From contig JAUIGE010000001.1 of assembly GCA_030430205.1 (NCBI GenBank), forward strand, positions 248,001 to 312,000: DNA of 64,000 bases, read 5' to 3'. The position numbers and the translations under genes were made by a program. The notes beneath the pieces are model-generated. The model worked only from the letters and a program-made list of their open reading frames with translations, searched no databases and was not told the DNA's origin. The stretch's first letter is position 1; each line of letters begins with the position of its first letter. Of the stretch, positions 17,186 through 20,010 are shown piece after piece. Source of the stretch: Bacteroidia bacterium (lineage in GTDB: Bacteria; Bacteroidota; Bacteroidia; J057).

Positions 17186-19903
17186 ATGCCTGGCTCCACA
17201 GACAAATCTCTGATCCACCGCATACCGAAAGAAATCAGCTCGCTTCAGCGGGGGGATAACCACCTTTTTGTGATCGGAATCAACGCCTACCGGCAGCTGG
17301 GAAAGCTGGAAAATGCCGTGCGCGATGCGCAGGCTTTCCGGGATGTGCTGCTGGAGCGCTATCGCTTTGAGGCATCGCATGTGACTGAGCTATATGATGC
17401 GCAGGCCAATCGCCGCAATATCATGCGTGAGCTAAGGGGCCTGGTAGGAGAACTCAAGCCAGAAGACAGCCTGATCATCTATTTTTCGGGCCATGGGCAC
17501 TTTGACCCGGTCCTGCAAGAAGGTCATTGGGTGCCGGTGGATGCGACCTATGACGTCATAGATGACTACATCCCTTACAACTTCCTGCAGCAGATCGCCC
17601 GCGCCATTCCGGCGCGCCATCTGCTGATGATCGTGGACTCCTGCTACTCAGGAGCGGTGCTGGTGCGGGAAAGAGATGCCGTCAAAGAGCGCTTTGAGCG
17701 CGACCCATCTCGCTGGCTGATCGCCTCCGGCCGCAATGAAGTTGTGCCTGACGGCAGCCTGATCGACAGGAACCACAGCCCTTTTGCCAAAGAGCTGCTC
17801 GATCTGCTCAGGAACTACAGCGAGGAAGGGCTGACGACCCAAATGCTGATCGCCCGTCTGACGGAAAACGTCAGCTACAATTCTAAGCAGACACCCATTG
17901 GGCAGGCCCTGCAGGCGGTAGGACACCAGGGAGGACAGTTTGTCTTTTATCCCCGCAAAAACGAGGCCCGGGACTGGGCCACTGCTCAACAAACAAATAC
18001 CGTCGCAGCCTACAGCCAGTTCCTGCAAAGCTATCCGCAAAGTGCGCATGCAGATGAGGCCGCCTGGCAGCTAGCCAGCCTCCAACACACCAAATCGGCT
18101 TATCGTCAATACATTGACCACGGCGGCAATCAAGTACAGGAAGCCATCCAGCGACTCGGCAGCATAGAAGAAAAAGAAAAATTCGAGCGGGCAAAACGCA
18201 AAGGAGAATCTGCTTTGCTGAAGTTCATGGTGGACTTCCCACAGAGTGACTTCCGGGCTCAGGCCCAGGCGGAGATCGCGCGCATCCGCGCACGGGAGCG
18301 CGAGCCCGAAGCCTTGCGCGACAGGCAGGATGGCGGGACGAAGGAAGCCCGTGCGCGCAAAGCGCCCGAGCAACAGGCGCAGGAGCGCCAACAAGCCAAA
18401 GAAGAAGCGCTCAGACGGAAAGAAGAGAAGCGCGCAGCCGCGGTCCCCTTATTGCAGCGCCCGCCTGTACGCTATGGGCTGATCGGCTTGCCGATCCTGA
18501 TCCTGCTCATTTGGGGAATCCCAAAACTTAGGGGTAGTAAAACAAACCCGGCTGATTGGCAAACATATAGCCGGCTGATTCAGAAAGCCGATAGCACATT
18601 CCAGGTAGGCAGAAATACACATGATCTCAAAACGGTCGAACATGCCAGAAACCTCTACACAGAAGCAAAAAGGCTAACCGATAGTCCCAAACCGAAAGAA
18701 CGCATACAGGCAGTCAACAAATGGGTCAGAACATATAATGATTCCCTGAAAAAACCAGTTGCCACGGCTCCCCAAACCAATGGTCTCGAAAGGACGGGCA
18801 CAGAAGACATACCATCCCAAGACCCTGTTCAATTGCTGATCGAACAAGGTTACCGCATCGTGTCCAACTGGCACCAGGAGGTCGCCATCTATGAAAAAGG
18901 TAGCAGCAACAAAGTGATGGGCCTCGTGAATAAAGACGCCCAACTCCTCGGCACCCCCTACTACAAAGTAGAAGAGCTCGCCAATGGTTACGCCATCTTT
19001 CACAAAGGCGGCAAGCGCGGCTACCTGGACCTGCAAGGCAAGGAGGTGGTCGCAGCGCGCTTCGATGCTGCCTGGCCCTTCGACCGCTCCGGACAGGCCA
19101 AGGTGAAGGAGGGAAGCAAGACCTTTTATATCAATACTTCAGGTGTATGTGTGAAGGGTTGTGAGGAGGCTGTGGCTGCTACAACACCTACCCCTATAGA
19201 TCAGATCCCCATTCCAAAGATGAAGCGGATTGCAGGAGGGACTTTTTTGATGGGAGATACCAACAGCAGCCCAGAAGATGAAAAGCCTGTGCATAAAGTG
19301 ACAGTCAACTCTTTTGAAATAGGCGTATATGAGGTAACACAAAAAGAATGGAAAGCCGTTATGGGCAGCAACCCCAGCTATTTCAAATGCGACAACTGTC
19401 CGGTCGAATTGGTGTCATGGGATAATGTGCAAAAATACATCCGCAAACTCAATCAGTTAACAAGCTCGAACTTCCGCCTCCCCACCGAAGCCGAGTGGGA
19501 ATACGCCGCAGGCGGTGGCATGATAGACCGCAACAGTGATGGCAGCCGCAAATACACCTTCGCAGGCGGCGATAACCTGGACAGTTACGGCTGGAATAAG
19601 AGCAACAGCGGCAGCAAAACCCATCCCATAGGTCAGAAGCGCCCCAATGGGCTGGGGCTCTATGATATGTCCGGTAATGTATGGGAGTGGTGCCAGGACT
19701 GGTACGGTTCGGACTACTATTCGACTTGCAATTCTCTGGGGACGGTTTCTAACCCCCAAGGGCCGAATTCTAGTACGGGCCGGGTACTACGGGGGGGTAG
19801 CTGGGACAGCGGCGCCTTCTTCTACCGTGTTGCCGATCGCTACGGCATCAGCCCCGACCACCGCAACAGCGATTATGGCTTTCGCCTGGCCAGGACCCTT
19901 TAA
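17186..19903 (+). CDS. Membrane-anchored caspase-like protein with WG-type repeats and a C-terminal FGE/C-type-lectin-like domain (putative DGR target)
   Basis: 905 residues. The N-terminal caspase (C14) domain (about 22-260) has the dyad His103 in YFSGHGHFD and Cys153 in VDSCYSG. A helical TPR-like part (about 265-385) and a Gln/Arg/Glu-rich coiled stretch lead to one membrane segment (about 431-449, LIGLPILILLIWG). Basic residues precede it and no signal peptide exists, so the caspase should be cytoplasmic and the rest periplasmic. WG-like repeats follow (about 545-650), then an FGE-sulfatase/SUMF1-type domain (672-905: MKRIAGGTFLMGD, RLPTEAEWEYA, SGNVWEWCQDWYG). It lacks the paired cysteines of true formylglycine-generating enzyme, so it is probably a binding fold. 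The tail from about 865 looks like the variable region of a diversity-generating retroelement. Confidence 0.85.
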   Translation: MPGSTDKSLIHRIPKEISSLQRGDNHLFVIGINAYRQLGKLENAVRDAQAFRDVLLERYRFEASHVTELYDAQANRRNIMRELRGLVGELKPEDSLIIYFSGHGHFDPVLQEGHWVPVDATYDVIDDYIPYNFLQQIARAIPARHLLMIVDSCYSGAVLVRERDAVKERFERDPSRWLIASGRNEVVPDGSLIDRNHSPFAKELLDLLRNYSEEGLTTQMLIARLTENVSYNSKQTPIGQALQAVGHQGGQFVFYPRKNEARDWATAQQTNTVAAYSQFLQSYPQSAHADEAAWQLASLQHTKSAYRQYIDHGGNQVQEAIQRLGSIEEKEKFERAKRKGESALLKFMVDFPQSDFRAQAQAEIARIRAREREPEALRDRQDGGTKEARARKAPEQQAQERQQAKEEALRRKEEKRAAAVPLLQRPPVRYGLIGLPILILLIWGIPKLRGSKTNPADWQTYSRLIQKADSTFQVGRNTHDLKTVEHARNLYTEAKRLTDSPKPKERIQAVNKWVRTYNDSLKKPVATAPQTNGLERTGTEDIPSQDPVQLLIEQGYRIVSNWHQEVAIYEKGSSNKVMGLVNKDAQLLGTPYYKVEELANGYAIFHKGGKRGYLDLQGKEVVAARFDAAWPFDRSGQAKVKEGSKTFYINTSGVCVKGCEEAVAATTPTPIDQIPIPKMKRIAGGTFLMGDTNSSPEDEKPVHKVTVNSFEIGVYEVTQKEWKAVMGSNPSYFKCDNCPVELVSWDNVQKYIRKLNQLTSSNFRLPTEAEWEYAAGGGMIDRNSDGSRKYTFAGGDNLDSYGWNKSNSGSKTHPIGQKRPNGLGLYDMSGNVWEWCQDWYGSDYYSTCNSLGTVSNPQGPNSSTGRVLRGGSWDSGAFFYRVADRYGISPDHRNSDYGFRLARTL
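19779..19890 (+). other. Putative variable region (VR) of a diversity-generating retroelement target
   Basis: The segment encodes RVLRGGSWDSGAFFYRVADR, then YGISPDHRNSDYGFRLA, at the place in the C-type-lectin fold where retroelement-diversified proteins vary. The 17 codons at the typical variable positions (D, S, G, F, F, Y, D, Y, G, I, S, D, H, N, S, D, Y) all end in C or T, as expected if they derive from AAC/AAT codons of a template repeat by adenine-specific mutagenesis. The framework residues (RGGSW, R-V-A-R, P, R, GFRLA) fit known targets. Neither a template repeat nor a reverse transcriptase was found in this window. Confidence 0.5.
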
Positions 19904-19956: not shown

Positions 19957-20010
19957 GCCCCCCTCAGGAAGGGGGCTGACGTGTTACATGAGGCGCTTTG
20001 CGCCTTTTCT
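19957..20010 (+). terminator. Hairpins after the caspase gene, including a Rho-independent-type terminator
   Basis: Two stems follow the stop codon. The first is GCCCCC/GGGGGC with an 8-base loop (19957-19976) and no T-run. The second is AGGCGC-TTT-GCGCCT followed by TTTCTTGT (19991-20010), a compact terminator. A GC-rich hairpin just after the variable region also recalls structures near the 3' end of retroelement targets (inference). From 20011 to 20143 no gene or further element was recognised. Confidence 0.6.

Follow-up and report, generated by a model that had tools for sequence, protein, structure and literature searches.

Proteins in which a caspase-type domain accompanies a target of a diversity-generating retroelement (DGR), and target-like genes left over from such elements, have both been published already. 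The orthocaspase-CLec DGR variable proteins reported in cyanobacteria, together with their paralogs, carry an N-terminal caspase and a C-terminal C-type-lectin domain and lie dispersed from the reverse transcriptase (RT) (PMC7517822). DGR lectins and caspase-type effectors have been placed in conflict systems (PMC10907252, PMC7159879), and the DGR-diversified putative antigen sensors of multicellular bacteria pair a sensor lectin with a death-type effector (PMC10907252). Leftover targets, which have no RT of their own, are represented by Treponema denticola SP32 (PMC4891356) and Nostoc all3226 (PMC7517822), and HRDC partners of DGRs are likewise known in T. denticola (PMC4891356). The idea of a DGR lectin joined to a caspase is thus not new, as it has already been published (PMC10907252, PMC7159879, PMC7517822).

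The caspase gene described here shares with the orthocaspase-CLec proteins its domain order and its distance from the RT, with the antigen sensors their lectin and effector logic, and with the leftover targets a target-like sequence lacking its own RT. It differs from the orthocaspase-CLec proteins in belonging to another phylum, in adding a membrane segment and a WG repeat, and in failing the template test set out below. The SP32 gene differs from its known template almost only at adenines, whereas the caspase tail does not do so against any template found. In contrast to the antigen sensors, the caspase gene has no adjoining STAND or MoxR/VMAP partner and is not a demonstrated target; in this genome and genus it is the real DGRs that stand next to LRR-Roc-COR genes, which carry a CHAT, TIR or caspase domain (cf. 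PMC10907252). The DGR variable protein TvpA of T. denticola (2y3c) has the same C-type-lectin/FGE fold, and its tail (RVLRGGSW...ISP..R.SD.GFRLA) aligns throughout with that of the caspase gene, but TvpA is one of a set of DGR targets that has a template of its own, and it carries no caspase, while for the caspase gene no template was found. We consider that the gene probably encodes a single-pass receptor whose tip is not being rewritten now, and which either is an ordinary sensor of fixed sequence or was once a DGR target and has decayed.

Domain layout of the caspase gene

The window, that is, the whole stretch of 64,000 nucleotides analysed, covers positions 248001-312000 of contig C14 in a genome of 7.24 Mb and 80 contigs. 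Most of the relatives found come from Bacteroidota, and to judge from them the family looks Saprospiraceae-like. The features of the gene are as follows:

17186..19903 (+): coding sequence, 905 aa, with the order caspase, helical linker, transmembrane (TM) segment, WG, FGE/C-type-lectin
17267..17899 (+): caspase (Peptidase_C14) domain, aa 28-238; Pfam, 63.9 bits
17492-17494 and 17642-17644 (+): caspase dyad, H103 and C153; from residue positions and fold match
18473..18529 (+): single predicted membrane segment, aa 430-448, with a basic N-side flank; from hydropathy and charges
19019..19120 (+): WG repeat, aa 612-645; Pfam, 26.6 against a cut-off of 25.6
19214..19894 (+): FGE-sulfatase / C-type-lectin domain, aa 677-903, without the catalytic cysteine pair; Pfam, 165.6 bits, closest solved structure TvpA (2y3c)
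19781..19885 (+): aa 866-900 (RVLRGGSW...GFR), the tail, with homology to the variable regions of DGRs
19805..19885 (+): 27 consecutive NNC/NNT codons, aa 874-900
19957..19976 (+): 6-bp GC hairpin (GCCCCCCTCAGGAAGGGGGC) 3' of the gene

An earlier note on this DNA, made from its letters alone, had read the gene as a membrane-anchored caspase with a tip putatively diversified by a retroelement, and its description of the protein was largely borne out. The open reading frame is real, and the His/Cys dyad lies at the residues claimed and within a caspase fold, as in family C14, with fold matches to metacaspase-4 (Z 21.3) and MALT1 (Z 21.2). The caspase protein also scores 78.4 bits against NF047832 (NCBIfam caspase, EACC1-associated), which is under the curated cut-off of 140. 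The one membrane segment with a basic N flank was recovered as the best hydrophobic window (mean 1.83), called from hydropathy and charge counts with no dedicated predictor; the 20 residues on its N side hold 7 K/R and 2 D/E, against 4 and 1 on its C side. As for the WG-like repeats, a single repeat exceeds the cut-off, so the plural was slightly generous.

The note had also described an FGE/C-type-lectin-like domain lacking the FGE cysteines, which agrees with what was found. The only cysteines of the domain are at 735, 738, 836 and 848, and since the tail (866-905) has none, the C-terminal catalytic pair of formylglycine-generating enzymes is absent. The domain matches TvpA over its length in both fold (Z 31.1, rmsd 1.8, 219 residues, 44% identity) and sequence, for which TvpA is also the nearest solved structure (E 5e-37); the runners-up in fold are PvdO (Z 27.4) and FGE enzymes (Z about 25-27). 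The structure model of the whole protein has a mean pLDDT of 70; its good parts are the caspase core and the FGE domain (the latter mostly >90), its poor parts the linker and the membrane region. In a tree of 91 FGE domains, the domain of the caspase gene sits at an open fork.

Judging from this architecture, the N-terminus and a putative caspase-type protease would lie inside the cell, with a non-enzymatic, TvpA-like lectin domain in the periplasm, making the protein an inner-membrane receptor. A ligand might bind the lectin surface made by the last 40 residues and thereby cluster the receptor, and clustering could switch on the caspase and lead to cell damage, death or dormancy as a conflict or stress response. 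Caspase-FGE fusions are also present in the related genomes G001, G007 and G008, of which the last, from another genus of the family, keeps the caspase-TM-FGE order; the tails of all three are without the codon run, and thus the architecture is independent of a DGR.

Templates and true targets in the same genome

The earlier note had proposed a search for a DGR RT and an Avd gene, and both are encoded in this genome, on contig C60. The RT (187999-188544), the one RT of DGR type identified in the genome, carries the motifs IGNLTSQ and YMDD, overlaps an HRDC gene and is flanked on each side by an FGE target, with a template (TR1) and an LRR-Roc-COR-CHAT gene in the same region (C60 186-193 kb, L021); it can be assigned to the DGR type because of its template-target pairs. 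A second template and target (TR3 and VR_C51) adjoin an LRR-Roc-COR-EAD11-TIR gene on contig C51 (L053), where no RT was found, and the single RT on C60 appears to act in trans for two templates. TR2, the third AAY-rich template (C60 20.6-21.1 kb; L054 6640-7086), faces away from the Avd gene beside it (NF033474, 100 bits, cut-off 80). Near TR2 and the Avd gene no RT was found, and a search of the genome yielded no target of TR2; together they look like what is left of a second DGR. TR2 also adjoins a short STAND/NACHT-type ORF. The AAY-template pattern retrieves exactly these three templates from the genome. The FGE genes served by the genome's DGR are others than the caspase gene and have templates of their own.

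Two further RT matches were not counted as DGR RTs: that on contig C13, where DGR parts were not seen in the stretch read, and that on contig C31, which was without DGR parts in the stretch read and lies beside a Cas1-like gene. In L023 (4052-5602), a short RT fragment comes after a Cas1-like gene, with further CRISPR-like genes in the vicinity. In the sister genome G001, the same HRDC-type cassette stands beside an LRR-Roc-COR-caspase gene; the LRR-Roc-COR protein with a C-terminal caspase domain is encoded at L156 5254-8538 (-), directly beside that DGR.

The true pairs of the genome supply a yardstick, in that nearly all their differences fall on adenines and that two elements downstream are common to template and target. 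VR_C60a and VR_C60b differ from TR1 at 17/28 and 18/28 A sites, respectively, and at 0/77 non-A sites, and VR_C51 differs from TR3 at 18/28 A sites and 1/77 non-A sites. The shared elements are a homing sequence (IMH) of 17 nt, which matches directly in every true pair, both here and in G001, and an inverted element of 13-15 nt. In every HRDC-type template of the genus (L021 after 7169/9572/9858, L053, L156), the latter stretch directly follows the homing sequence, its reverse complement lies about 20 nt past the homing sequence of the template's own target, and changes in either one are matched in the other (CTCACAGGAAGGC, CTCACAGGAAT, CTCACGGGAATGC). The inverted element might let the template RNA pair with the sense strand of the target. 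Among the viral DGR pairs compared, none showed such an element.

By this yardstick, the caspase tip is a look-alike of a DGR target that can be told apart from the real targets in the same genome. Its tail differs from TR1 at 16/28 A sites and 26/77 non-A sites, from TR3 at 16/28 and 27/77, and from TR2, its best template at about 69% identity, at 17/31 and 16/74. TR2 was accordingly rejected as its cognate template, the 16/74 non-A differences comparing with 0-1/77 in true pairs. Ranked by closeness at non-A sites, the caspase tail is 2/102 among FGE tails for TR2, which hints at DGR ancestry, and 31-66 for the other templates. Enrichment of differences at A sites by itself proves nothing, since non-cognate FGE tails used as controls show the same. 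Neither the homing sequence nor the inverted element is present at the caspase gene. A hairpin or cruciform following the variable region is a further mark of DGR targets; the caspase gene is followed by the 6-bp GC hairpin at 19957-19976, which is without the inverted element that true targets have.

The near-copy of the tail with A at every differing position, for which the earlier note had advised a search, was not found in the genome either. "Same-or-A" patterns from both halves of the tail, allowing <=3 mismatches, retrieved from the genome the gene itself and one A-rich stretch (C60:75423), which was rejected as a chance match, and a pattern taken from the tail retrieved nothing from viral contigs. 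A BLAST search of the tail against the genome gave weak matches only; among them, that at C60:189791 (71%) pointed the way to TR1. The assembly is estimated at 100% completeness. Because it consists of 80 contigs, a short template could be missing. A loose published rule accepts remote targets at >50% identity to a template (PMC7517822); that rule would admit the caspase tail among the remote targets of TR2, but the adenine rule would not. The codon pattern and the DGR in the genome that the earlier reading called for are therefore there, while the diversification of the caspase tip is not supported for the present: the genome's templates are not its own, and it is very unlikely that the tail is diversified now.

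The codon run and its possible origins

DGR targets carry NNY codons at their variable positions, and here the earlier note's claim of NNC/NNT codons held: codons 874-900 all end in C or T (27/27), the longest such run among 45,555 codons examined in this genome, where the next-longest are 22 and 21. Where the amino acid allows a choice, 16/16 codons in the tail end in C or T, as compared to 0.65 upstream, which is the highest of 114 FGE tails compared. Given the amino acids, the probability that all codons are NNY is 5e-4 with the usage of the genome and 1e-3 with that of the rest of the gene, and by conditional z-score the tail window ranks 80th of 41,705, with 79 windows higher. The codon pattern goes beyond chance, but moderately.

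The reading that fares best, which we put at about an even chance, is that the tail was never a DGR target and belongs to an ordinary FGE/C-type-lectin sensor, the run arising from codon bias in a tail rich in aromatic residues, Asp, Ser and Asn. The caspase-FGE fusions of sister genomes, which lack the signature, agree with this, as does a conditional probability of no less than about 1e-3, with other windows of the genome scoring as high; on the other hand, the run is the longest in the 45,555 codons examined and falls exactly in the stretch that DGRs rewrite.

Somewhat less probable, yet retained because of the codon run and the mild likeness to the orphan TR2, is descent from a former target. 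The tail would have been written from the Avd-type element (TR2 and Avd) and would have drifted after loss of the RT, its specificity then frozen. Besides the rank of the tail for TR2, TR2 itself is NNY at all codons of the 27-codon stretch but one, the exception differing by an A-to-T change, and leftover targets after DGR loss are published from Treponema denticola (PMC4891356) and Nostoc (PMC7517822). Against such descent, the core differs from TR2 at 11/53 non-A sites, while in the T. denticola leftover 2/21 changes lie off adenine (PMC4891356); the differences of the tail from TR2 are enriched at A sites (p 1e-3) no more strongly than those of unrelated FGE tails, and no homing sequence is common to tail and TR2. 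Were the tail a relic, DGR sensors at an active, an orphaned and a frozen stage would exist side by side in one genome, and a course of "diversify, select, freeze" would become testable. It seems to us rather unlikely that the membrane caspase carries a frozen, DGR-selected sensor whose tip came from an Avd-type DGR that has since broken down, with the orphan template and the Avd gene surviving on the same chromosome; were it true, hypermutation would have come first and fixation of the bacterial receptor second, much as an antibody specificity is retained.

It is highly improbable that the gene is an active remote target, rewritten in trans by the C60 RT from a template that the assembly lacks or that lies on a replicon not seen, for although remote targets are known (PMC7517822, PMC4891356) and this RT evidently served the TR3-VR_C51 pair on a contig where no RT was found, no template was found in an assembly of full estimated completeness, and the caspase gene lacks both downstream elements of the genome's targets.

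Separately, a third FGE gene (L021 12983-13780) keeps part of the homing sequence and has 24/77 non-A differences from TR1, and from its sequence it looks like a decayed DGR target.
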